Source: Stratiformator vulcanicus
GTDB lineage: Bacteria; Planctomycetota; Planctomycetia; Planctomycetales; Planctomycetaceae
Direction of reading: 5' to 3'
Assembly: GCF_007744515.1 (NCBI RefSeq)
Contig: NZ_CP036268.1
Coordinates: forward strand, 2,085,712-2,149,711
Length of the DNA stretch: 64,000 bases
How positions within the stretch are numbered: the first letter of the stretch is position 1; each line of letters starts with the position of its first letter. A program made the position numbers and the translations under genes. The notes under the pieces were generated by a model. That model was not told the origin of the DNA, searched no databases, and saw only the letters and a program-made list of their open reading frames with translations. Below are positions 2,785 through 58,765 of the stretch, piece by piece.

Positions 2785-5700
2785 CCGCCAATGGGGACAA
2801 TCGAAACGTCGAGACCTTACTCGGTTGGAGTGATGCGGCGGAGCGAGGTTTGGCAACGACCTCTCGATTGGATCGACTTACCAACGCCCTCTTACTTTGC
2901 GGCGGTTGTTGTGTGATTGTGGTCGGACTCTTGTATTCGCTGGCTTGGCCAAGCGGTGTCGACCGGTTATCCGTTCTTGGTCTCTTAATAAGCGTTGCAC
3001 TCGTCGCAGCGTTTCTTATATTCCGGGACTCGTCCATTCGTGGCGCGAATCGCCAGTTGAAGTTCGCACTAAGAATTGGGGGATACAGCCGAATCGCGAC
3101 GGCCGTTGAAGTGGCGTCGCCCGATCGATTTTCCGGGTCTAGTTCGCTCGGGAACCACTATGCGAGACATGCGATTAAAGCCGTTGGCATACCGCAGGTT
3201 TCCTTTCGTGATGTCACGCTCCGCTACATGATTAAGGGGGTGATTGGAACCGCGATGATCATTGGCTCGATAATGGTCGCGATGTCGGCTGACAGTCGCT
3301 CAAGTCACCCAAGCGTTCCTGAGATCGAATCAGATTTAAGGGCGCGCTCTCAATCGCAAGCGGCGAAGTCTTCGCTTATTAGTTTCTCCGTGGGGTGGTC
3401 TCATCGATCGGATGAGCGAAGCGACGAGCCTGTCTTGCTCGGGCCTTGTCGGGTCGTGCCCTCGAATGCCGATATAAGGCTCTCGGTCGTGTTTGATGGC
3501 GACGTCGAAGGCATTGCCGTTCGTGACGAATCCAATGCGGTGCGAGCCACTCACGCAGAAGTTGTTTTCGATGGCGATGAAGTTGAACTGCGTTTTCCCG
3601 CCGGTGAACCGGGGGCGTTTCGATTTGTTGTGCTGTGGACAGACCGCGAAAACGATACTCAATACGCATATCAAATGACCGAGCCGATTGAAGTCGTCGC
3701 GGCCCGTTCACCGAGTGTGTCGCTGAGCACAGAGTTGTCGTCAGTCACACCGAATGGGATTGTACGCGCGACGATTCGAGCCGCGGATGAGTTCGGATTA
3801 GTGCAGGTCGGTGCCTTAGCGAACAAGGGCGCCGAAACGTTACGAGATAATAGCGTCGATCTTAAGGCAGACCGAACCGGTGCTGCCCCGCTTCGCGTTG
3901 TCGCTGAAGAAGTCGTATTTGATCTTCATGGATCGCAACTCTCCAATGGAGACGAGCTAAGAATTATCGGCAATGCGGCCTCGCTCAGCGGGATGCAGGG
4001 ATCGTCGGCACTCATCGAAATTCGCATCGTCGCTCCGGAAGCGAAGCGGGCCGAACTAATCGCAAAAAGTAAACGGGAACTGGATTCGCTTCTCGTATCG
4101 ATTGATCAATGGCGAAAGTTGGCACGAAGAATACTAGGCGATGGAGAAGACCCGGCTCAGTTTCGACAGTCGACCGTTCGGCTTTATCGCCGCATTCGTC
4201 TATCGGACCAGGGGGCTGCCGGTCGAATTCAACAGATCGTATCGGCCTTCGACGACAATCGAATCGACGCATTCGTGCCATCGGACAGGCTTCGCATGGT
4301 TCAGGAGAAATTGACGCAGACATCCGAGGGGCCGCTCGCGGACTTAATTCAACGGCTTCGCGAAAACCCGGAAACTCCGCTGTCGGCGGAAACCCAGTTG
4401 TTGATTTCTGACATATTAAGGAGGCTCGAAATAGTCGAGAGTCTTTCCGCAGAGATCGCTCAAGATGGAGTGAGCGAGAGCACCGTCGTTGACCGTGTCG
4501 AAATAAGTCGCAGAGCGATTGAATCCATTGAACGCATTTTGTCACTTCAGGAAGGCCTGTCGGGGAGATTGGACGGCCGAGAGAGTGAAGGTGATCGACG
4601 CGGGCTTTTATATGAGGCGGAGGAAATCGTGACTGAAATGACGGTGCTACTGAAGGCCGCCAATGTCGCTGAGTTGATAAAGGTCAAACCGGAGATTGAA
4701 AGGGCGGGGCAATTGACGTTGGCGGGGCGTGATGACATTCAGGCCGGGCAGTATCAGAGTGCAGCCGAGTTCTTGATCGCCAGCGAAGAGCTGCTGCAAT
4801 CGGTCGCGGGCAAATTGCAGCGTGACGTTCTTCGGATGGAACGATCAATTGCCGCTCGCCGGAGCAAAGCCATTGGTGACCGGTTCTCGGACATATTTGA
4901 GGTACAGGATCAGATTCGGACATCGGTTCTCGCGATTCACGCGGAGAGCAAAGCCGGTTTCAATCGCTCTCTAAAATTGCGCATGGTTGAAAATGGAGCT
5001 GCGCAGAGAAAAGTGATGCGTGAATTGTCGGCGTTTCGGAAAACCGGTGGATTGTCAGAACTTTCTTCGGCGGCGACTTCACTCTTAGAAAGTACGATGA
5101 CAACCGCGGCTGATTATTTGGACGCTCTTGATATTGAAGCGGCCGTCACTTCACAGGCGGCCCTTCAATCGCTGATCTCGTTCATTAAGGCGATCGTTGA
5201 GGAGAGTGGCCAAGAAATTCCGTCAATTAAAGAGTTGGCGGAAGCTCCGTCACAGGCCGAAGTCGATCCGTCTATCCGGATTGCCAGTAGTGTGTTGCAA
5301 CCGCTGCAAGTGTTAAGAAGGCGGACCGAGGATTTGGACGACACGAATCGCCAGTTGAGAGGCGAAATAGCCCAGTCGCACCGACTTCTCGTCGAACTCG
5401 CGACCGCTGTGGCCGCACTGGAGCCGGAGACTTCCGCTTCTACGGACGAAAATAAATACAACGGACCTTCAAGAGAACTGCTGTCACTCATCGAGCGACT
5501 CCTTACTAAGATCGCCGAGGCTCTTGAGTCAGACGATGGATTGGGACCGGTGCGTGATTCGCAATCGGAACTGATTCTCCTGCTATCGGATCGACTGAAC
5601 GTCGAAGGCGCCGCAGCCGAGGACGTCGGGGGAGGTAGTGCCAGTGGTAGTCCCGAAGTGACGGGGCCTGACGGCAGCGTGGGCAGTGCGAGTGGAGGTC

Positions 5701-44935: not shown

Positions 44936-46810
44936 CTACGTTGCCGCGGGCCTGCGGTGGAAATACCACCATTCGAATAGAATGAACACCAACGCCCCGA
45001 CTGCAAAGTAAGGCCACAGCGGCAATTCCGCACCCACGCCCGCATCGCCGACTTCAACATCGATCTCACGGAATCGAAGATTGTCGGTTGAGTCAAGTCC
45101 GGTCTCGCGAGCGGACAATAGCGCCACGCCGATCGAACGTGCCCCTGCCGGGGTATCGATGCGATAGAGGCCTACAAGCGGCGCTCCCAATCCGGAGACC
45201 GATCCGGCCGCATCGGCCACGGCCGACTCCGTCTTGCCGTCCGGTCGGGTCACGGCCACGCGCTCGCCGGGGGGCACGGTCATCGTCGGCAAAAGGCCGG
45301 TTGAGTTCCCGCGGGCCTCATTCAGTTTCGCTTCGACGCGGGCCATTGTGACGAGATTGCTCGCCATAATCGGAAACCCGAGCCGATATGGCAGCGTCGA
45401 CTGATTGATGTCGAACAGGAAGCGATAGGTCGGTCCAAAATTCTCGCGTCGCTTCACGATCAGCGGGCCGCGCCGGCCGGAGACGATCGGCTCGTACCCG
45501 AGCGCTTCGAAGTCGGCGTCGGCTACACCTTCGATTGCCTCCCATGCATTACTAATTTGCACGTCTTCGAGCGTCACGTAGGTCAGCAGCGGGTCGCCAC
45601 GCAGCCAGTCGACAGGCGAGACCAGGTCGTCCGACTTGGCGACGATCGACCGGAGATCGTCCGGCAGAACATCAATGAAAACGCGAACGCGGGCGTCGGA
45701 GTCTTCGTCCGCAGCGTCATTTGAAACCAGAAGGTCGAATTCCTCCGGCACGACGCCGTCACCGGGAAACAGCCGGATGCCTTTTGAAACGGCAAGGGCC
45801 TGTCGAAAACTCTCCAACTCCGTCGGACAGTACACGTCGAGCGGCTTCGGCTTGGGCAGCGCGATCCAAGCTTTGTTATCGATTTCAATCGAATCGAATC
45901 CGGAAGGAACGACCGTCGCGGCCAGTTCGACGGCTTCTGATGTCGCGACCCGAAACGTGATTTGAGCCGGGGTTTCCGCTTCGGGAACGACGTCTTCTTC
46001 GACGAGCAATTCCTCGCCGTTCTTAACGACAATTGTGCCCGACGCCCGGTCGGCCCCGCCGACGGAGGCTTCGACGAAAACCTCCCACGCCGACTCTCCG
46101 ACCGGCCGAGCATTGAATGATGTGAGTCCCAAGTTTCGACCGCCCGGCTCGACCTTCTGGATGACCAGATCGAACGGCAGGTCGACGCTGACTTCTTCCG
46201 GCAGATTTCCGTCGGTAATAAAGACGGCTTTCTTCACGCCGCCCGAACCGGCCGTCCGCGACAGGCCGACCGCCATGCGAAGGGCATCGGTCGGGTCGCT
46301 CTCGACCGGCGTGACTTTGAGGTCTTCCAAAGCCGATCTCAGCATGCGTTGGTCACTGGTGAAAGGCGTCAGTTGCCGCGCGGTCCGGTCGCCGGCGATC
46401 AATGAGACGACCTGCCCCGGCAGCAGCCCATCAATGACGGCGCGGGCCCGACGCTTGGCGATGTCAAGCCGTGTCTCGCCGCCCGATTCATCGAGCGCCG
46501 CCATACTGGCTGAGCAATCGATGATCAGCGGAATCGCTTCATCTCCCCGCGCCGCCGCACTGAGGACCGGCTGCATCGCGGCCAAGCAGATCGCCGCCAG
46601 AATTAAGAGTTGCAAAAGCAGCAGCAGGTTTTGCTTAAACTTTTGAAACGGCGAGTTGACCCGCTGGTCGTTGAGCACCTGCTGCCACAAGACGAGCGAG
46701 GGGACCAGCGCCCGGGGTCGCCGCAGTTTAAGGAAATAGAAGATAATCACCGGAATGGCCAGTAGGGCCAGCAGTCCGGCAATCGGGGCGAGGAAATTAA
46801 AACTGCTCAT
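44936..46810 (-). CDS. BatA-like vWA membrane protein
   Basis: A 624-residue protein of the BatA type. It has the N-terminal membrane module (IVFYFLKLRRPRALVPS-like segment, helices about 8-28 and 60-80) and then a vWA domain with the metal site DCSAS at about residue 98 (PLIIDCSASM) and FITDGN. A C-terminal hydrophobic helix (about 600-618) ends in basic residues. ATG 46810 overlaps the stop of the preceding DUF58 gene by four bases (ATGA), as for other junctions in this cluster. BatA proteins are partners of MoxR ATPases. Confidence 0.87.
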   Translation of the reverse strand: MSSFNFLAPIAGLLALLAIPVIIFYFLKLRRPRALVPSLVLWQQVLNDQRVNSPFQKFKQNLLLLLQLLILAAICLAAMQPVLSAAARGDEAIPLIIDCSASMAALDESGGETRLDIAKRRARAVIDGLLPGQVVSLIAGDRTARQLTPFTSDQRMLRSALEDLKVTPVESDPTDALRMAVGLSRTAGSGGVKKAVFITDGNLPEEVSVDLPFDLVIQKVEPGGRNLGLTSFNARPVGESAWEVFVEASVGGADRASGTIVVKNGEELLVEEDVVPEAETPAQITFRVATSEAVELAATVVPSGFDSIEIDNKAWIALPKPKPLDVYCPTELESFRQALAVSKGIRLFPGDGVVPEEFDLLVSNDAADEDSDARVRVFIDVLPDDLRSIVAKSDDLVSPVDWLRGDPLLTYVTLEDVQISNAWEAIEGVADADFEALGYEPIVSGRRGPLIVKRRENFGPTYRFLFDINQSTLPYRLGFPIMASNLVTMARVEAKLNEARGNSTGLLPTMTVPPGERVAVTRPDGKTESAVADAAGSVSGLGAPLVGLYRIDTPAGARSIGVALLSARETGLDSTDNLRFREIDVEVGDAGVGAELPLWPYFAVGALVFILFEWWYFHRRPAAT

Positions 46811-47706
46811 CGCAGCCACCCCCGCCGACGCAGCGTGTCGAACATCAGCGTTTCGATCGGCTCATCGGAACTGACCGGCAAGAAGCGACCGTTCCGCTTC
46901 GTGCATAGGGCGGCGACGCGTTCATTCATCGCGGCGAGATGTTCGTGATACATACCGACGAGGTCTTCGGCCGAGGTGACGTCGAGTGTCGAACCAGTTT
47001 CGGAGTCGATCAATCGGACGTCTCCGTCGACTTGAGGGTTCCGTTCATTCGGGCCGAGAATCTGAATCGCACAGACTTCAAGCCCCGCCCCGAACAAACG
47101 GTTGAGCGGCCGCCCCAGTTCACCCCAAGTTAAAAAATCGGACAACAAAATCGCCATTCCCCGGCCGGAGTGATTCCTCAGCACCGTTTCAACGGCCCGA
47201 TCGATCATCGCGTTGCCTCCCGCGTCGAGACCCTCGACGAAAGAGAGCATCCGCCGCATGCTGACCCGCCCGGCGCATTGCGGCAGCACCTTCGGGGCTT
47301 TGTCAGCCGCCTGACAGCCGTAAATGCTCAGCCGCTCCCCGCCGAGCAGCGTCATCACGCCGAAGGAGGCCGCAAGCTGCCTGGCCAATTGAAATTTTCC
47401 CTCGAAGCTCATCGAGGTCGACCCGTCGACAATCACAACAACGTGCATTTCTTCTTCATGTCGATACAGCTTCACGTAAGGTCGATTGAGCCGGGAGAAG
47501 ATGTTCCAGTCGACCCGCCGCATATCGTCGCCGGCGACGTAATCGCGGTAGTCCTCGAACTCCGTACTCGCCCCGCCCCGCCCCGCGAGATGTTCGCCCC
47601 GACTGTGATTCGTCAACCGCTTCCGCGGCGCAAGCCGCAACCGCTCCAATCGCGTCAACGTCGCGTTGGTAAGGAGAGAGCTAAGTTGTGCGGTCGATGC
47701 GGGCAT
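46807..47706 (-). CDS. DUF58 protein with intact metal site
   Basis: A 299-residue soluble protein of the DUF58 family. The signature FEDYRDYVAGDDMRRVDWNIFSRLNRPYVKLYRHEEE is at about residues 50-87, followed by the vWA metal site DGSTSM (Asp94) and AILLSDFL later. Unlike the DUF58 protein at 21214, it has no membrane helices and an intact DxSxS motif. It lies directly upstream of the BatA-like gene with a four-base overlap. DUF58 proteins act with MoxR. Confidence 0.9.
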   Translation of the reverse strand: MPASTAQLSSLLTNATLTRLERLRLAPRKRLTNHSRGEHLAGRGGASTEFEDYRDYVAGDDMRRVDWNIFSRLNRPYVKLYRHEEEMHVVVIVDGSTSMSFEGKFQLARQLAASFGVMTLLGGERLSIYGCQAADKAPKVLPQCAGRVSMRRMLSFVEGLDAGGNAMIDRAVETVLRNHSGRGMAILLSDFLTWGELGRPLNRLFGAGLEVCAIQILGPNERNPQVDGDVRLIDSETGSTLDVTSAEDLVGMYHEHLAAMNERVAALCTKRNGRFLPVSSDEPIETLMFDTLRRRGWLR

Positions 47707-48618: not shown

Positions 48619-49665
48619 TCACACCGCATACGTGGGCTCCGCGCTCAACGCCTTCGATGCGTCCTGAACCAGCTTCGCCACCGAGACTTCTTCTGCTTGG
48701 CCATCATAGTTCAGCAACACGCGGTGCTGCAGCACGGGAACGGCGAAGTGGCGGATGTCGTCCACGGCAACGTGAACACGTCCATCGGCCAGGGCGCGCA
48801 CTCGGGCCGCCTTGATTAATCCCTGCGCGGCACGCGGGCTCGCACCCCAGCGGACATATTGTTTGACTTCATCAGCGGCATCGGGTGTGTCGGGATGCGT
48901 CGACATCACAAGTCGGACGGCAAAGTCTCGGACTGATTCCGTCACGACCATTTTGTCGAGCGTCTTTCTTAATTCGACGATCTTGTGGCCGTCGAGTATT
49001 TTGTCGAGATTGATCGGCTCTTTAAGAATCGTGCGGGTGACGATGTCATTCAATTCGTGCCGGTTTGGGAACGGGACGTTGACTTTAAATAGGAATCGGT
49101 CGAGTTGGGCTTCGGGTAGGGGGTAGGTTCCCTCCTGCTCCAGCGGGTTCTGGGTCGCCATCACGAAGAACGGCTGCTCGAGAATGTGAACCGTTCCGCC
49201 GGTCGTTACGGAGCCTTCCTGCATCGTCTCAAGCAGGGCCGACTGCGTCTTCGGTGAGGCCCGGTTGATTTCATCGGCAAGTAATAGCTGTGTGAAGATC
49301 GGGCCAGGTTTAAATTCGAGTTGATATCGCCCGTGGTCGTCGGCCGCCATGACCGTCGTGCCGATGATGTCAGCCGGCATCAAGTCGGGCGTAAACTGCA
49401 CGCGGCGGAACTCAAGGTCGAGCACGCGTGAGAGCGCCTTGACGAGTTCCGTTTTACCGAGTCCCGGCACACCCTCCAGTAGCACGTTGCCGCCGCAGAA
49501 CAGGGCCACGAGCACGCCGTCGATGACGTCGGCTTGACCGACCATCACGCGAGCGACCTCGTCTCGGACTTTGGAAAATGTGCCGCGAAACGCTTCCGCC
49601 TCGTTCGCCAGGGCGGAGGTGTCGGTCGAAGCGGTCTCAGTAGGGGCGAAGTCGCCGTCACTCAT
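48619..49665 (-). CDS. MoxR family AAA+ ATPase
   Basis: A 348-residue AAA+ ATPase. Walker A GVPGLGKT (about residues 65-72), Walker B LLLADEINRA (about 128-137) and the sensor/DRF region ATQNPLEQEGTYPLPEAQLDRF are all present, as in MoxR proteins, which are thought to be chaperone-like factors acting on vWA partners. The only moxR in this window; the vWA, DUF58 and BatA-like genes around it are its probable clients. ATG 49665 is preferred to GTG/ATG options at 49734, which would overlap the previous gene's end. Confidence 0.93.
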   Translation of the reverse strand: MSDGDFAPTETASTDTSALANEAEAFRGTFSKVRDEVARVMVGQADVIDGVLVALFCGGNVLLEGVPGLGKTELVKALSRVLDLEFRRVQFTPDLMPADIIGTTVMAADDHGRYQLEFKPGPIFTQLLLADEINRASPKTQSALLETMQEGSVTTGGTVHILEQPFFVMATQNPLEQEGTYPLPEAQLDRFLFKVNVPFPNRHELNDIVTRTILKEPINLDKILDGHKIVELRKTLDKMVVTESVRDFAVRLVMSTHPDTPDAADEVKQYVRWGASPRAAQGLIKAARVRALADGRVHVAVDDIRHFAVPVLQHRVLLNYDGQAEEVSVAKLVQDASKALSAEPTYAV

Positions 49666-49714
49666 CTGGTTATCCCTCGGAGAAGCTCTCGGATGTAGGT
49701 CTGAAATGTAAATC

Positions 49715-52700
49715 TTATTCGGATTGGTCGGCATCGCCGCCCTGCTGACGCCGTCGCTTCGCTTCGAGAAGGCGACTCATCGTCGAGCCGTCTTCGTTCG
49801 ATTCGCCGGGCTTCGGCTGCGGTGGGGGCTTATTCGTCGACTGTGGCATGCGCGGCCGTTGCGATGGCGGTGACTGCTTTTGGGACAGCGGCTTGCCCTC
49901 GCGCGTCGGTGGTGTGGTCGTCGGTTTCTGACCACGTTTGCGGTCGAGCAGGCGGTCCATTGTCGCGGTTCCCGACTTGCGGCGGTCCATCCCGAACCAG
50001 CCTTTGACGGTCATCCAATCGAGTTGCACCCGCCGGACCGCGACATCGAGCGGGAGCAGAATCGCGACCGCCAGAAGCAACCAGTCGAAGATCGGCCGGG
50101 TCGACTTTCGCGTCGCTCGCTCGGCGGGATAAATCTGTTCGGAGGTCGCTTCAGGCGTTAATACGCTTCCCCCGGTGCGCTCGGCGATGTCGGACAGCAC
50201 AATCGGGTTGGAGCGGAAGCGGGTAAATTCCGGAGAGTAAGGCACGATCAACCCCCCGGCGACGCGGTCGGTCCGCTTGCCGGTCCCTTGGCCGATCGCC
50301 ATCACCTGATAGCGGCCTTCCCCCCACAGCGGCATTCTCGCTTCATAGCGTCGCGGTCCGACCTGTCGTAATTCGATCGATTCGGCCTTGTCATTCGGTC
50401 CCCGAACCAGTGCCGTGACCGAAATCGGATCGCCGCTCGGGTGATAATCCTCAATGACGAAGATTGCTTCATTCCCCTCCGAATCGGCGGACAGCCGCAG
50501 TTGCGTGTCGGTCTGCGTTCGTGACAGGTGCGTGACGACCTGTTCCACAAAGGGCTGAAAGCGGTCCCACGTCAACCAATCGCGTCCCCAGTTGGACGAC
50601 AGATCAGACGCAAACGCCCCGGAGCGACCGATCCCGTATTGCCAGACGCTCAGCAGCGGATCAAGTTCGCCGACGTCTTCGGCGTCTTTGTTCGGGGCGC
50701 GCATTAAGAGTCGAGCGGGGAACCCCTTCTGGCTGGAGAGTACATACCCGTGGATCGGCGGCGGATCGGAAATACCCTTCAGGACCGGATGCAAGCCGTC
50801 TTCAATCTGCGGCGTGACCGTCTCATTCTCGATCATGCTCCGCTCTAATGTCTTCGCTTCCTTGATGAAGATTGAAGGCAGGCGATTGGCGTTCTTGGGA
50901 TAGTAGAAGTTCCCTTTGGTCAATGAAGCGATGTCCTGCAGCGAACCCGTATCATTAGGAGTGTGTGGGAAAACTGCGACGGTCGAGATGCTGATCTTCT
51001 CAGCGACGAAATCTTGCATTAATTTCGGGGCGGGGATGGATGGGTCGGCGTCCGAAATGATAATCATGTGCTTTGTCGCCGCGTCGCTCTTCTTTAAACC
51101 CTGCAGGCCGAGCCGCATTGTTGTGTCGAAGCTTGGCATGTCGCCGATTTGGGCGTTATTAATCAATTTGGCAAGCCGCGGCAGTTCCCCCGCGGGAGTT
51201 AATTCGAACAGCCACTTTTCCCCGCCCTGATAGTCGTAGACAAGCACGCCGACTTCGTCCTTGTCGCTGAGGACGCGAATCGCTTCTTTGGTGATTCGTT
51301 TCGCGTAGGTGTTGCCCTCCGGGAATTCGCAGGTATGCAAGATGATGGCGAGCGCGCCCTTGGGAAGCACTTTGCGATTGGTGACGTCCATTGAAACCGG
51401 CAGCGCGGCTTCGACGAGCGTATTGTGATAACCGCCCGGTCCGAAGCTGTTCGGCCCGCCCAGCATTAAGAATCCCATCCCCAGATCGCGGACACTGTCA
51501 TGGACCGCCTGGAGCTGCCGGGCGTCGAATGCGTCGGCGCCGACGTTGGCAAATATTAAGAGGTCGTAAGGCAGCATCGCCAGCGGATCGTCCGGCAGGT
51601 CGTAGGCGGAAATTAATTTCACGCCGCGGCGTCCTTCGCGGATCGCGGCGACGAGTTCCTTCCAGTCGCGGGCATCGCCATCCGGGTCGGTCACAATTGC
51701 GACGACCCCTTCGCCTTGAAGCCTGAGCGCGTTGACCACCTTGTTGTTGTGCTCAACCCGATCCTCGCCCTCGGGCGGAACGATGACCGCTTCGTATTCG
51801 TAGTAGCCCGGCTCACGCAGTGAAATCGGAAGCGTGATTCGGTTCTTGCCCGCTTCAAATTCGACGGGAATTTCGGCCAGCTTTTCGCCGTTTTCTCGCA
51901 CGACGAGCGTTCCGGAACCCGCCTTGAGCGACGACAGCACAACGGCTGCGTCGTAGGTCTCGCCGCGTTTGACATAACGCGGTAATTCCAGCCGCTCCAG
52001 CCAGACCTCGTTTTCATAAGCGTATTCGATAGGGAGAACATCGACTTCGATGCCGCGGGAATTCAGTTGTGCGATGACCGAGTCGAGGTCGCCCTGCGTT
52101 TGCGCCCCGTCGCTCATCAGCACAATCCGCCCTGGCTGATCGGCAGGAATCATCGCAGCCGACAGTGAAAGCGACGATGCGAGGTCGGTTCCGCCGCTTT
52201 CAATCAGCGATCCGACTTGCGGCAACTCGCCCGGTAATACCGTTCGCGGCGGCAGTTCCACGGCGGCGTTGCGTCCGAACACGATCATCCCGGCCTGATC
52301 GTCGGACGGCTTTTGATAGACGGTGTCTGCGAAGAACTTTCGGCCCGCTTCCAAGGTGCCGGGGTCGATCGACCCACTGACGTCGAGCGCGTACATCACG
52401 GCGAGGTCGTCGCGGAGCCGCACGGCGCGGGGTTCCGCGATCGCGGTAATTAACAGTCCCGCGACCGTCAGCCGCAACAATAGCGCGACCGCCGCGCGTG
52501 TCTTCGTCGCGCCGGAACCGCCGGCGACGGAGAGCCACCAGATCCAGGGAAAGATCGGGGCGAGATAGAGCAGCCGCCTCGGCCAAGCGAAATCGATCCG
52601 GTCGGTCGCAAAGAGGTACCCGAGTGTTCCGTAGAACGCAGCCAGAAACAGAGCGAGCGGCAACACGTCGGTCCAGCCGACCGCACGTCGCGGAGCGGGA

Positions 52701-52774
52701 AACACCCACGAAAGCAGTGACCGGATCGCTTTGATCGGTCCGTTGGATTGTTGATTGGTCAGACCCCGGCTCAA
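49715..52774 (-). CDS. large vWA and GATase-like membrane protein
   Basis: A protein of about 1019 residues. Three hydrophobic helices (about 36-56, 70-85 and 94-113) precede a vWA domain with the metal site DVSGS (about 131-135), TDLASS and LMSDGAQT. A second fold with GATase-like features follows (FANVGADAFDAR, FLMLGGPNSFGPGGYH, about 430-475), then a beta-rich part, a C-terminal helix (about 905-925), and a long Pro/Gln/Lys tail. TTG 52774 overlaps the stop of the ABC ATPase/NHL gene by four bases (TTGA) and has GGAG eight bases upstream, which decides the start over the longer frame to 52852. A likely MoxR client. Confidence 0.82.
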   Translation of the reverse strand: MSRGLTNQQSNGPIKAIRSLLSWVFPAPRRAVGWTDVLPLALFLAAFYGTLGYLFATDRIDFAWPRRLLYLAPIFPWIWWLSVAGGSGATKTRAAVALLLRLTVAGLLITAIAEPRAVRLRDDLAVMYALDVSGSIDPGTLEAGRKFFADTVYQKPSDDQAGMIVFGRNAAVELPPRTVLPGELPQVGSLIESGGTDLASSLSLSAAMIPADQPGRIVLMSDGAQTQGDLDSVIAQLNSRGIEVDVLPIEYAYENEVWLERLELPRYVKRGETYDAAVVLSSLKAGSGTLVVRENGEKLAEIPVEFEAGKNRITLPISLREPGYYEYEAVIVPPEGEDRVEHNNKVVNALRLQGEGVVAIVTDPDGDARDWKELVAAIREGRRGVKLISAYDLPDDPLAMLPYDLLIFANVGADAFDARQLQAVHDSVRDLGMGFLMLGGPNSFGPGGYHNTLVEAALPVSMDVTNRKVLPKGALAIILHTCEFPEGNTYAKRITKEAIRVLSDKDEVGVLVYDYQGGEKWLFELTPAGELPRLAKLINNAQIGDMPSFDTTMRLGLQGLKKSDAATKHMIIISDADPSIPAPKLMQDFVAEKISISTVAVFPHTPNDTGSLQDIASLTKGNFYYPKNANRLPSIFIKEAKTLERSMIENETVTPQIEDGLHPVLKGISDPPPIHGYVLSSQKGFPARLLMRAPNKDAEDVGELDPLLSVWQYGIGRSGAFASDLSSNWGRDWLTWDRFQPFVEQVVTHLSRTQTDTQLRLSADSEGNEAIFVIEDYHPSGDPISVTALVRGPNDKAESIELRQVGPRRYEARMPLWGEGRYQVMAIGQGTGKRTDRVAGGLIVPYSPEFTRFRSNPIVLSDIAERTGGSVLTPEATSEQIYPAERATRKSTRPIFDWLLLAVAILLPLDVAVRRVQLDWMTVKGWFGMDRRKSGTATMDRLLDRKRGQKPTTTPPTREGKPLSQKQSPPSQRPRMPQSTNKPPPQPKPGESNEDGSTMSRLLEAKRRRQQGGDADQSE

Positions 52775-54606
52775 CGGATCAGCTCCACGATGCGTCGGTT
52801 TCCGGTATCGGCCACGACGATCGTGCCCTTCGAGTCGACCGCAAGACCCCACGGCGTGGCGAATTGGCCTTTGCCGCGCCCGGCCGAGCCGAACGCTCCG
52901 GTTCGAACGCCGTTCGGGTCGAGACGCGAAACCCGTCCCGCGGCATATTCCACGACATAGAAATCACCTTCAGGCCCCATCTTCAACTCATACGGGTAAC
53001 CCAATTCGGCCGCCGATTCATCCCCGAGCGTACCGACGTACTTGCCGTCGCCGGAGAAAATCTGAATCCGGCTATTGAACGCGTCCGCGACGTATAGCCG
53101 ATCGTCGCGCCACACCAATCCGCTCGGTCGTTGGAATTCACCCGCCTCGGTGCCCGGTGTTCCGAACTCCAACACGAAATCACCTTCGAGCGTCAGCTTT
53201 TGAATGCGGTCGTTACCGCCGTATTCGCCGACATACAGGTGCCCGGTGTCGTCTCGCTCAATGGCGACGGGGAAGATGAACTGCCCCGGTTCCTCGCCGC
53301 GAGATCCGACCGTCTTAAGTACCTCGCCTTCCGGCGAAAAATAAACGAGCCGGTAATAGTGCGTATCCGTAACGATGATCCGGCCGTCATCAAGGAGGCA
53401 GAGTCCTTCCGGATTACCCGCTTCGGAATCGGGCATTTCCCACTGCCGGATCAATTCCCTCTCCGAGTCGAAGACAAGCACTCGGCCCGCATTGTCGAGC
53501 ACGAACCGCTCGTCGTTCGGGCCGATTGCGACCGCCCGCGGGGCCGGAATGAGCGATCCGCTCGGCGGCAAAACGAAGGATCGCTCTTCAGAGATCGGGA
53601 TCTGTCGAATCGTCTCACTGTCACACCCGAGGCAACTGATGGCCAATAGCAATCCGGTCAGAAAACGCAATGCGATCTTCATCCCCGGGCGGAGCTGTTC
53701 TCGCGGCGGACGGTGATAGAAGTCGGCGACCTCACCCGATCCACTGTGTTTCATTTGCGATCGGGTGATGACGCCGTGCGACCGTGTCGAGATGACCTCG
53801 ATCGGCGACTCGCCGTCGGCCGCAACATCCAGCATCGCGGGGCGAACACCATGCCCTGGGCGGGTATCATGACTGCCCAAAAACTTTCTGGCCTGTTGGT
53901 GGCTAATCCAATTGATCGGGCCGAGCAGCCAACCGCTGTCTCGATCGGGTGGGTCGTGATAAAGATCTTCGACGGTGCCGTCATAAACGACCCGTCCCGA
54001 GTCGAGCCCGATGGCCCGGTCGCAATGCGCAAGAACCCGTTCTGGTTCATGTGTCGCCATGACGAGCGATGTCTGATCTTCCCGGAGCTTCATGTCGAAT
54101 CGCTCCCAGTAGCCCTCGCATCGAGCGGGATCGACGTGCGAAAGTGGCTCGTCGGCGATGAGAACAGAAGGCCGCCACGAAAGAGCGCGGGCGAGGGCGA
54201 CACGGGATCGTTCACCACGCGAGAGTTGGTCGGCTTGACGCTCGGCGAGCGCGTTTAAATCGAACAGTTCGAGGAAATGGTCGATCTCGCTCGACGCGTT
54301 CGATTGTTCGGTGAGCCCCAATTCCAAGTGCTGTCGGACGGTCATGTGCGGCCACAGTCCGTCATCGGGCGGCACCCAGGCGATGGGAAGACGTGATTTT
54401 TCGAACGACGCGTCAAGCCGTTCGACCCGCCCCTGTTGAGGCCGTTCGAATCCGACGAGGAGGTTGAGCAGTGACGTCTTGCCCGATCCTGACGCGCCGA
54501 TGATCGCCGTCCGGCCCGCGGGAATGTCGAGCGTGACATCTTTCAACCGCGCGGACGTTCGTACCGGCAGCGAGACGTGGTCGAGATGCCACAGGTCACC
54601 AGTCAT
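52771..54606 (-). CDS. ABC ATPase fused to an NHL-repeat lipoprotein-like domain
   Basis: One 611-residue frame carries two unlike halves. Residues 1-300 are an iron-type ABC ATPase: Walker A GASGSGKTS, signature LSRGERSRVALARAL, Walker B VLIADEPLSHVD, and a TOBE-like tail. From Met309 begins what looks like a signal peptide (MKIALRFLTGLLLAISCLGC) with a lipobox-like Cys at about 328, then six or so NHL repeats forming a propeller (GPNDERFVLDNAGRVLVFD, GHLYVGEYGGND, GTIVVADTGNRRIVELIR). ATG 54606 overlaps the permease stop by four bases. The internal ATG at 53682 lies in an ATGA context. Whether the two parts are one protein, two proteins, or joined by an error is open. The ATPase partner genes are the permease and binding protein upstream. 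Confidence 0.8.
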   Translation of the reverse strand: MTGDLWHLDHVSLPVRTSARLKDVTLDIPAGRTAIIGASGSGKTSLLNLLVGFERPQQGRVERLDASFEKSRLPIAWVPPDDGLWPHMTVRQHLELGLTEQSNASSEIDHFLELFDLNALAERQADQLSRGERSRVALARALSWRPSVLIADEPLSHVDPARCEGYWERFDMKLREDQTSLVMATHEPERVLAHCDRAIGLDSGRVVYDGTVEDLYHDPPDRDSGWLLGPINWISHQQARKFLGSHDTRPGHGVRPAMLDVAADGESPIEVISTRSHGVITRSQMKHSGSGEVADFYHRPPREQLRPGMKIALRFLTGLLLAISCLGCDSETIRQIPISEERSFVLPPSGSLIPAPRAVAIGPNDERFVLDNAGRVLVFDSERELIRQWEMPDSEAGNPEGLCLLDDGRIIVTDTHYYRLVYFSPEGEVLKTVGSRGEEPGQFIFPVAIERDDTGHLYVGEYGGNDRIQKLTLEGDFVLEFGTPGTEAGEFQRPSGLVWRDDRLYVADAFNSRIQIFSGDGKYVGTLGDESAAELGYPYELKMGPEGDFYVVEYAAGRVSRLDPNGVRTGAFGSAGRGKGQFATPWGLAVDSKGTIVVADTGNRRIVELIR

Positions 54607-56066
54607 CGACGCAGCCGAGCGAGAAGTCGCGGAGTCAGGAAATCGACCAAAAAGTAGATCAGCAGTGGAATCGCAACGCACAGTGCGGCCCTTAGCGACA
54701 ACGACGCATTGTGGCCGTAGTGCATAAAGTTATACAGCCGCACCGCGGGGGAAACGACCGAAACCGGTGCGAGGACCGCCGCCGCATTCACGTCGCTGTA
54801 AGCCCACCATGCGAGTAGGCCGATCACCATGAATTTCGGTCGGCTTCGCAACTCCCACAAGAGTCGGCGTGCTCGTGCCCGCACGCTCCGATCGGGCGCC
54901 GCAAGCGCGAGTGACGCCTCTCGGATCGAGGATCGTCGCGCCGTCGCGTTGATCACCAGTTGCAAGAGCACGGCCCGCGGGAGCAACCAGACGGCCCACG
55001 CGACAACGAGCGGAACGATCGTGTCATAGAACCCCCTCAAGGCGCTGCTGCGAAATAACTCCGCCAACACGATCGACAGCGATAGAGAACCCATTAACGC
55101 CACGCCGCACAGAGCCGACAACGAAGTCACGCTCGCAACACGCCCCCATCCGCGGGGAGCGAAGTTCAGCAATTGCACGATTGCGAAAGCGACGACCGCC
55201 GCGATGAGGCTCAGGGCCAGAGTCTCAAAAATATCGACGATGAACCGGGTGTAGAGCGACGAATCTTTGATCGCTGCGGGCAGGGCCGCGGTCGATTCGA
55301 TGATCGTGAGCGCGACAGGAATAGCCATCGCGATCACGCCGATGCCGAGCAGGCTCCACGCGAGGATCGGGCGGTGCCGTGAACCTTGGAACTTGCTGTC
55401 GCCTGCTATCGCGTCGGCGAAATCGTCTCGTGCGGAAGAAATTTGCGCGAGCCAAAACATGAGTGGCAGCAGAATCGCAAATTCGACCAGCACGGGCGCA
55501 GTCATCAAACTCCACACGGAGACGGTCGGCCCTCTTAGCGACCACTGCTCGAAAAGCGTCACACTCCAACTCACCAGACCCATCAGCGAGGGAATATCGT
55601 ATTGCTGAAATGTCCAGATAAACGCGATCGCCCCGGGAGCAAGCAACCGTCCCACCGGCCCGCGAATGACGATGCCGAGATGCTCCATCATCGACCGAAT
55701 GCCGAATCGGGCGGACCCCTTGGAAAGCGACGCCACGTGAACGCCGGCCGCGCTGATGCCGGACGCCGGCGATACTGCGAGCACGGCTGCCGCAAGTGCC
55801 GAGGCTTTGATTGCGATCAAAGCCCCGCCGAGGACTTCATTCCACAGCGGCCTCGTCAACAGCGAGAGCCCGAAGTTGGCGTAACCGTACGCGATGAGCC
55901 AATCAGGGATGAGAATGATTCCGGTGATCAGTCCCCACGCGATCCGTCGAACGGTCGGGTTCGAACGCGTGAGAACCGGCTCAAACAGCGCGGCCGCGGC
56001 TGTCGCGATCGGCGTGATCGCGAGTGCTCGCAGCAGGGTCCACAATGTCGCCACAGCCAGAGACAA
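54603..56066 (-). CDS. iron(III)-type ABC permease (FbpB-like, two-module)
   Basis: A 487-residue permease with about twelve hydrophobic helices, with the six-helix permease unit duplicated as in FbpB/ThiP-type proteins. The second unit contains PRAVLLQLVINATARRSSIREASLALAAPDRS, a partly conserved EAA loop. It lies between the binding-protein gene (27 bases upstream) and the ATPase fusion (four-base overlap), giving the order binding protein, permease, ATPase. The substrate is probably a metal ion or small oxyanion. Confidence 0.8.
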   Translation of the reverse strand: MSLAVATLWTLLRALAITPIATAAAALFEPVLTRSNPTVRRIAWGLITGIILIPDWLIAYGYANFGLSLLTRPLWNEVLGGALIAIKASALAAAVLAVSPASGISAAGVHVASLSKGSARFGIRSMMEHLGIVIRGPVGRLLAPGAIAFIWTFQQYDIPSLMGLVSWSVTLFEQWSLRGPTVSVWSLMTAPVLVEFAILLPLMFWLAQISSARDDFADAIAGDSKFQGSRHRPILAWSLLGIGVIAMAIPVALTIIESTAALPAAIKDSSLYTRFIVDIFETLALSLIAAVVAFAIVQLLNFAPRGWGRVASVTSLSALCGVALMGSLSLSIVLAELFRSSALRGFYDTIVPLVVAWAVWLLPRAVLLQLVINATARRSSIREASLALAAPDRSVRARARRLLWELRSRPKFMVIGLLAWWAYSDVNAAAVLAPVSVVSPAVRLYNFMHYGHNASLSLRAALCVAIPLLIYFLVDFLTPRLLARLRR

Positions 56067-56093: not shown

Positions 56094-57125
56094 CTATTCG
56101 GAACTCAGCCAAGACAGTACGGCCTCGCGATTTTCCGCCAGTCCGCTCAATGCGATCCCCCGCTTCACCAGCGGCATCAACTCGAGGACCTCCGCCGACA
56201 ATTGCGTTTCATCAACCGATCCAAGTGGAACCTGACGGGCTCTCGATCTCGATAATTCGAGTTCCACCTGTTCGGAGAGGAGAAAGTCGACCAATCGTTT
56301 GGCGGCCGGAAGGTTGGAGGAACCTTTGACGATGGCAACGCTATTGGGGATCGCAATCGTACGTCGCCTGTTCCCGTCAGCTTCGATTTCAACAGGAACG
56401 AATGACACCGGCTTTCCCGCATCGACAGCGAGGAAATAGTCGTCCGTGTCGGTCCATCCAAAGGCTGACTTGCCTTCAGCGACGAGATTCTTAGTCGTCG
56501 AATTCCCGGCGACGACTTGCGCGCCGCGGCGAGACAAATCCTCGTACCACTGACGCAATTGGTCCGGCCCCCAAACGTCGTGCAACACGCTGAAATGTGT
56601 CAGCGTCGTGCCGAACATCGGCTTGGCGAGTACGAAGTCGGTCGGATCGGCTGCGAGCCGCTCGTCGATTGCTTCCGTCGACGCGGTCATCAGATCGGTG
56701 TTTACAATGTAAACCCGAAGCCGCGCCGCAAATCCGGCCCAGTGGCCGTCGGGATCGCGATAACGTCCCGGAATCCTCTCGAATCCCGGTCCCTTGTAGG
56801 CGTGAAACAAACCCTCTTCGGCCAGCGCGACTGTGCCAAGAACCTGATTGTTCCAGAATACATCGCAGCGTGGTTGGTCTCGTTCAGATCGGATCAGCGC
56901 CACGAATCCGACGGACTTGTTCGCTTCGGTGTCGAACTTCACGTCGACATGAATGCCGGTTTCCGCTTCGAAGCGGTCGAGAACTTGCTGCGAATACAGC
57001 GCATCGTGCGAGCAATACACCACGAGGCGATTTTGTGCCTTGTGAGTGCAGCCGCCCGAAAACCCGATGACCGCCAATCCCGCAACGGCGGTAACTGAAA
57101 TCAGCGCCGCGTAGCGTTGGCTCAT
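56094..57125 (-). CDS. iron-type ABC substrate-binding protein (FbpA-like), lipoprotein
   Basis: A 343-residue binding protein. A signal peptide ends in a lipobox-like FSGGC (Cys at about 26). The mature part matches the FbpA/Fe3+ group: RLVVYCSHDALYSQQVLDRFEAETGIHVDVKFDTE near the start, then CDVFWNNQ and KPMFGTTLTHF. Such proteins carry iron(III), thiosulfate, polyamines or other small solutes. The start overlaps the end of the coiled-coil gene by four bases (ATGA). An ABC importer set therefore begins here, inside a MoxR/vWA cluster. Confidence 0.85.
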   Translation of the reverse strand: MSQRYAALISVTAVAGLAVIGFSGGCTHKAQNRLVVYCSHDALYSQQVLDRFEAETGIHVDVKFDTEANKSVGFVALIRSERDQPRCDVFWNNQVLGTVALAEEGLFHAYKGPGFERIPGRYRDPDGHWAGFAARLRVYIVNTDLMTASTEAIDERLAADPTDFVLAKPMFGTTLTHFSVLHDVWGPDQLRQWYEDLSRRGAQVVAGNSTTKNLVAEGKSAFGWTDTDDYFLAVDAGKPVSFVPVEIEADGNRRRTIAIPNSVAIVKGSSNLPAAKRLVDFLLSEQVELELSRSRARQVPLGSVDETQLSAEVLELMPLVKRGIALSGLAENREAVLSWLSSE

Positions 57126-58765
57126 TCGTAGCCTACGTCCGTGTTCGCTCCGGTCGGAACCGACAGCGTATCGAAATATTTGCGGATATCATCGTGATAT
57201 CCGGGCGGAACTTGTTCTTTCAGGATCGCTTCGCTGACACCGTCGCGCACGGCTTCGATTTGCTCATCGTAATTGACGACGGCTGCGTTCTCCCGACCCT
57301 CCCCCTTTGTTTTGAGGGAAAGGAGTAATTTGCCGGCGAGGAGCGCCGACTTTGAGTTCTCCGGCGTGTAGTCGGTTTCGACGGAATCGTCTTCAGCCGC
57401 GATACCACCTCTGCCCTGACCGCGTCCGCCCATGCCGTCACCGTCGCCGCCATTGCCGTTACCCTTTCCCATTTTGGCGAGCATTTCAGCGTAACGTTTC
57501 GCATAGTCGGCCATTGACGAGCAGCCTTCACAACTGCCGCCGTCGAGTTTTTCAGCACTGTTGAGTTTCTTCGCCATCTGCATCGCTTTCAGCGATTCCT
57601 CCAGCGACTCCAAATCGCGGATCGACTGCGCGAGCGATTCGAATTCCATCCCCGAAAGTTCCATCTCCTCGGCGAGGGCGGCTAGTTCCTCGGAATTCAT
57701 GCCCTGCTCGGCTTGCGCGGAAAGTTGCTCGGATGCCTTTTTCATCATGTCTGCTACCTGCTGCGCTCCCGACTCACGAGCGAGCTGCTCCATCCGTTCC
57801 ATCCGCCGACGCAGTTTCTGCAGCGTCTGCTCTTTCTCGACCGGGTCCATCGAGTCTTTGTCGCGGGTCAATCGCTCGAGCTCTTTCTTCATTTCAGAGA
57901 GCTCTTTCTGCAGCGACTCCGTTTTGCCCTTCTTCAATTCGTCCGACATTTTTCGCAGCATCTCGTCCTGTTGGCCGCGACCGATCTTCTGGGTCCCCTG
58001 CTCCCGGCGCATCTTCTCGGCCAGTTTTTTCTCGGCCCGAGCCCGCCACTCGTCGCTGAATTTTTTCTGCTGCATCGCGAGTTGCCGGGCGTTCTTCTTG
58101 ACCTGCGTGGGGTCTGTCTTGCGGAAGAAGTTCGACAGCTCCTTCGTCAGCCGTTCGATCTGCTGGGAGTTTTCCGCCTCGGGTGCTTCGCGTTTGAGCT
58201 CTTCGAGCCGCGACGTCTGTGCCTCCCGCCGCTGGGCCAGTTCTTCTTTCTTTTCCTCAGCAGCTTTCGCCTGCGTGATCTTGCCGAACGGATCCCACAT
58301 CGGGGCGAGCAGTGTCGCGCCGACCACGATCAAGGCGGCGGTGACCCCTTTCACCAAGCCTCGCCGCGGATCAAACGGCAATGCCTTCACGACGTTCGCA
58401 TTGGCCGAGGCCTGTTCCGCCGAGGCGACAACGAGCGGGCCGAAGCCGGCGTTCGCTCGTTCGAGCTCGGTCAGAGATAGGAACAGGTCTTTTGTCCCGG
58501 CTGCCCGATCGACCACCCGAGCCCCGTCCGGGGCGGTCGGCCGTCGAAAGAACAGGCCCGCGATCATCGCCGCAACGATCGGCGGGGCAATCAACGCGCC
58601 GATGAGAATGGCCTCGGTCTGCTTGGGGTACCACCACAATAAAGGAATGCAGCACAGGGCAATGCCGAAGCAGCCGAGTAACGCATTGACATACAGCCGA
58701 CCGAACCGGGCCACGGCGATTCGTCGCCGGGCGGTCGCGATGACGCGCGTGCTGTTCGTCCCCAT
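57122..58765 (-). CDS. coiled-coil membrane protein, first gene of the MoxR/vWA cluster
   Basis: A 547-residue protein. Three hydrophobic helices (about 26-45, 52-73, 138-156) are followed by a long, highly charged coiled coil (about 165-350, EKKLAEKMRREQ, ELERLTRDKDS), a Cys-rich short stretch (GGSCEGCSS), a Gly-rich linker (about 445-465) and a tail (PPGYHDDIRKYFDTL) resembling that of the 2781-5942 protein. Function unknown; the plan suggests a membrane scaffold or tether. It overlaps the binding-protein start by four bases and is probably the first gene of the long transcript. Confidence 0.82.
   Translation of the reverse strand: MGTNSTRVIATARRRIAVARFGRLYVNALLGCFGIALCCIPLLWWYPKQTEAILIGALIAPPIVAAMIAGLFFRRPTAPDGARVVDRAAGTKDLFLSLTELERANAGFGPLVVASAEQASANANVVKALPFDPRRGLVKGVTAALIVVGATLLAPMWDPFGKITQAKAAEEKKEELAQRREAQTSRLEELKREAPEAENSQQIERLTKELSNFFRKTDPTQVKKNARQLAMQQKKFSDEWRARAEKKLAEKMRREQGTQKIGRGQQDEMLRKMSDELKKGKTESLQKELSEMKKELERLTRDKDSMDPVEKEQTLQKLRRRMERMEQLARESGAQQVADMMKKASEQLSAQAEQGMNSEELAALAEEMELSGMEFESLAQSIRDLESLEESLKAMQMAKKLNSAEKLDGGSCEGCSSMADYAKRYAEMLAKMGKGNGNGGDGDGMGGRGQGRGGIAAEDDSVETDYTPENSKSALLAGKLLLSLKTKGEGRENAAVVNYDEQIEAVRDGVSEAILKEQVPPGYHDDIRKYFDTLSVPTGANTDVGYE

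Follow-up and report, generated by a model that had tools for sequence, protein, structure and literature searches.

An FbpC-type ABC ATPase joined to an NHL propeller through an internal lipoprotein signal in Stratiformator vulcanicus: a probable pro-polyprotein

Lipoprotein signals are normally N-terminal and are searched for only at N-termini. A signal sequence inside a bacterial polyprotein is found in FbcH, the cytochrome b/c1 precursor of Bradyrhizobium, which is split at that site by type I cleavage into two respiratory-complex proteins. PknD of M. tuberculosis, which is not known to have a lipobox, unites an ATP-using cytoplasmic domain, a hydrophobic segment and an extracytoplasmic NHL propeller in one chain. 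FbpC (PDB 9j4r and 3fvq) is the ATPase of ferric-type Fbp importers, in which it works with the permease FbpB and the substrate-binding protein FbpA.

Here we describe a gene of Stratiformator vulcanicus, within a 64,000-nucleotide stretch of contig NZ_CP036268.1 (the window), that compares with each of these systems. Its first half superposes on FbpC and keeps the nucleotide-binding motifs, but its C-terminus, unlike that of FbpC, runs on into a lipoprotein signal and an NHL propeller. The order of parts is that of PknD, with an ABC ATPase in place of the kinase. As in FbcH, a cut would fall at an internal signal, which here is a type II lipobox following a soluble ATPase. A literature search on NHL/ABC fusions in planctomycetes, or on lipoboxes inside proteins, brought up nothing relevant. 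We propose, with a probability of about two in three, that the product is a single pro-polyprotein with an internal type II signal, at which Cys328 would receive its lipid and LspA would cleave the chain into an ATPase and an NHL lipoprotein of the periplasm.

Domain layout of the fused gene

The gene occupies positions 52771-54606 of the minus strand, where one frame of 611 codons runs without a stop from the ATG at 54606 to the TGA ending at 52771. Pfam matches cover both halves, with ABC_tran (PF00005) at residues 21-155 (E = 6e-28) and NHL repeats (PF01436) reaching residue 607 (E = 6.6e-24), confirming the initial annotation of a cytoplasmic-type ATPase and a lipoprotein-like NHL propeller in a single frame. 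The chain consists of a nucleotide-binding domain (NBD; residues 1-230, 53917-54606), a TOBE domain (residues 231-315, 53662-53916), a hydrophobic h-region ending in Gly at -1 (residues 316-327, 53626-53661), the lipobox Cys328 (53623-53625), at which lipidation and cleavage are predicted, and a six-bladed NHL propeller (residues 340-611, 52774-53589). Across the fused homologues the NBD keeps invariant Walker A residues (G37, S39, G40, G42 and K43), S129 and G131 of the LSxGE motif, D152-E153 and H186. With these motifs, a TOBE domain, and a cognate permease and substrate-binding protein encoded alongside, the ATPase half is of the FbpC/CysA/MalK type.

An AlphaFold2 model built on 33 aligned homologues has a mean pLDDT of 90.7, whereas its pTM of 0.54 leaves the relative placement of the two halves unset. 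The model comprises the NBD, TOBE strands within residues 252-315, the last of which spans residues 310-315, only a short helix at residues 319-325, a low-confidence stretch at residues 324-331 and the six-bladed propeller from residue 340. Residues 1-317 superpose on T. thermophilus FbpC (9j4r_B) with a Z-score of 27.7 over 312 aligned residues, and the propeller half superposes on the NHL domains of Thin and TRIM71 with Z-scores of 34-37 and on that of PknD with a Z-score of about 29. The single frame had been annotated correctly, but the ATPase does not end near residue 300 as first read, since the NBD and TOBE together extend to about residue 315. Met309, the internal ATG in an ATGA context noted earlier (codon 309, 53682-53680), thus lies inside the TOBE fold, where it opens the last strand and marks no clean domain boundary in the model.

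Conservation of the fusion and of its joint

The search for homologues covered 392 genomes from this phylum, 59 relatives and one named metagenome-assembled genome (MAG) locus. Including the window's own gene, 35 fused homologues were found, 30 in the same family and five elsewhere in the phylum; they are ~40-50% identical and have one full-length open frame with neither stop nor frameshift. The initial annotation had asked whether homologues carry the halves fused or apart. Both occur: the fusion is natural in these 35, and the halves are separate genes in about eleven genomes. Two further MAG matches are interrupted, L043 by a TAA in the ATPase near position 906 and L060 by a propeller frameshift near 3230; both are drafts, and either a pseudogene or a draft error may account for each. 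Frames of more than 1,100 residues at L075, L077 and L081, which might be taken for a triple fusion with the permease, are open-frame read-through, the permease lying in another frame.

The separate halves are adjacent at L082-L088, where a stop and then a new start lie between the ATPase and NHL genes, and on different contigs in G394, G399, G404 and G412. The free NHL proteins of these split versions bear their own lipobox. Three of the seven adjacent split loci (L083, L084 and L088) encode ATPases that stop short of the TOBE domain. On the NHL tree the state changes eight times between fused and split by parsimony, and at least three times judged by well-supported branches, in a direction that the tree does not give; one change falls within a single genus (L019 fused, L036 split). 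Because split versions occur, covalent linkage is dispensable, which favours a processed precursor. A free NHL gene of a distant family, f50, is immediately preceded by a different ABC ATPase gene (L101:8899-9750, minus strand); the two may have come together independently.

The joint itself is strongly patterned. In 28 non-redundant fused rows it reads G-x-R-V-x-L-R, to which the last TOBE strand (residues 310-315) corresponds in the column profile, followed by ~12 drifting hydrophobic positions and then G/S-C. The lipobox Cys is present in 35 of 35 fused homologues, preceded by Gly in 34 and Ser in one, and is the sole invariant Cys column of the whole protein, while the h-region keeps hydrophobicity alone. 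No other residue of the junction is invariant. The -3 position of the window's lipobox is Cys, which is atypical. The uncharged core has a median length of 15 residues (12-18) in fused proteins versus 15.5 (12-26) in the signals that free NHL proteins carry at their N-termini, and the distance from the Cys to a PAPR motif is 26 residues in both. Charge around the fused segment has a median of +3 before and -1 after. With a charged n-region, a short h-region and a Cys-ended lipobox, the segment has the sequence features of a type II signal, albeit internal instead of N-terminal. Hydrophobicity is somewhat greater in fused h-regions than in their free counterparts (p = 0.002 once near-copies had been thinned), which might be what a late signal needs.

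Importer genes and the MoxR module

All neighbouring genes considered here are on the minus strand. Immediately upstream lies a permease gene (54603-56066), whose stop (54605-54603) overlaps the ATPase start in the four-base ATGA arrangement that the first reading had noticed at other junctions. The permease is so divergent that none of 23 homologues gave a Pfam match, yet its AlphaFold2 model matches FbpB (9j4r_A) over the full length. Further upstream is a substrate-binding protein of the FbpA/AfuA/PhnS-like group (56094-57125). In their permease fold and binding-protein group the two genes thus resemble the T. thermophilus Fbp system. However, unlike in the ferric Fbp importers, the binding protein has no ferric di-tyrosine: in the alignment with 7w3w, the site of the two adjacent Fe-coordinating tyrosines is taken by T-D-x-D-D, a motif that does not vary. 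This substitution suggests a ligand different from that of the ferric-binding relatives, and we do not assign a ferric substrate by family name. Upstream of the binding protein, a protein rich in charged residues (57122-58765), kept in most loci, has no Pfam family.

Downstream lies a membrane protein with VWA and GATase1-like domains (49715-52852, a mechanical open reading frame whose true start is probably further in), followed by a putative MoxR-type AAA+ ATPase (48619-49734), a DUF58 protein (46807-47706) and a BatA-like VWA protein (44936-46819), the last three named from sequence and all four conserved as neighbours. The whole order, from the charged-residue-rich protein through the binding protein, permease, ATPase/NHL fusion, VWA/GATase protein, MoxR and DUF58 to BatA, is kept in most genomes that have the fusion. 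In sister families (L095-L099) a free NHL gene lies upstream of VWA-MoxR, with DUF58 and BatA next in most, and no Fbp-like binding protein or permease was found beside it, whereas here the propeller is fused and has both upstream. The free NHL proteins of sister families are about 40% identical to the propeller, six of seven carry a lipobox, and the same downstream genes follow in most loci read. Since the free NHL gene heads the VWA-MoxR operon in these families, the MoxR-VWA module appears to be the propeller's older partner.

Proposed maturation and alternative readings

We infer cleavage, export and lipidation, as well as a functional tie to the MoxR module, as follows. Residues 1-315 would fold in the cytoplasm as an ATPase subunit (NBD and TOBE) serving the FbpABC-like importer whose other components the two adjoining upstream genes encode. 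The positively charged last TOBE strand (R-V-x-L-R) would act as the n-region of the internal signal, followed by an h-region of 12-18 residues and G-C, and this signal would target the remaining chain to Sec. Lgt would then lipidate Cys328 and LspA would cut before it; the genome encodes one LspA and two Lgt genes. The products would be an ATPase of ~36 kDa, from which an intramembrane protease may later remove the C-terminal h-region, and a membrane-tethered periplasmic NHL lipoprotein of ~31 kDa, which may partner the neighbouring VWA-MoxR-DUF58-BatA module. Several points speak against this scheme: the Cys at -3 of the window's lipobox is atypical, Sec and Lgt do not usually meet a signal with a folded ATPase ahead of it, and an LspA cut alone would leave the h-region on the ATPase. 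E. coli RseP, a member of the site-2 protease family, is described as clearing signal peptides from the membrane (PMC8144685), and site-2 protease homologues are present in the genome; a relative of RseP could therefore trim the h-region borne by the ATPase. In addition, the conserved lipobox could also mean lipidation without cleavage.

The main rival to cleavage, which we consider unlikely, is a permanently linked bitopic protein, in which segment 316-328 would be an uncleaved signal anchor holding the ATPase inside and the propeller outside, where the latter could sense for or gate the importer. The single frame in 35 genomes, the positive-inside charge, the greater hydrophobicity of fused h-regions and the match to the extracellular NHL domain of PknD are all consistent with such a protein, and the kinase-TM-NHL order of PknD has been described as that of a receptor (PMC1262709). 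However, the uncharged core of 15 residues is short for an anchor, an invariant G/S-C lipobox would be superfluous to it, and relatives, once within one genus, make the halves separately. Moreover, only ~3 residues lie between the last TOBE strand and the hydrophobic helix in the model, which would pin the TOBE domain against the membrane; in importers of the MalK type this domain is distal. Thus, of the earlier picture of one chain crossing the membrane, the joined frame stands, and a permanent crossing is judged less likely than cleavage.

Much less probable is a pair of products, the full-length ATPase-NHL protein and a free NHL lipoprotein initiated at Met309. Although an ATG at codon 309 does precede the signal-like sequence, position 309 is Met in only six of 28 non-redundant fused rows, and an ATG lies between -32 and -12 from the Cys in nine of the 35 homologues. 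L021 has no ATG, GTG or TTG across the 35 codons before the Cys, and L024 has a single one within -35 to 0, at -4. The ribosome-binding match upstream of Met309 is also weak (3 of 6), which counts for little because the ATPase's own start likewise scores 3. Since Met309 is not conserved and L021 is devoid of start codons near the joint, internal initiation is not the general mechanism, and the suggestion of two overlapping genes with a start at Met309 finds no support.

Finally, a sequencing or assembly error that merged two overlapping genes, for which the ATGA overlap elsewhere in the operon and the existence of unfused relatives might speak, is so improbable as to be negligible, because the same open fused frame recurs in 35 records, several from single-contig genomes, and the sequence around the joint shows coding constraint (pN/pS of 0.21 in close pairs); the fused frame is real and natural, and a frameshift artefact, including the one-base change envisaged in the initial annotation, is ruled out as its origin.

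We return to the cleaved pro-polyprotein as the preferred reading. With a little less confidence than for the window's own gene, we extend it to the whole family: the last TOBE strand would double as the n-region, and maturation by Lgt and LspA would separate motor from partner and fix their synthesis at 1:1. The fusion links an Fbp-type importer to a MoxR-VWA module. If the proposed cleavage is correct, the Sec, Lgt and LspA machinery is able to mature a polyprotein's second half behind a folded ATPase, and lipoproteins hidden in fusions are currently being missed.
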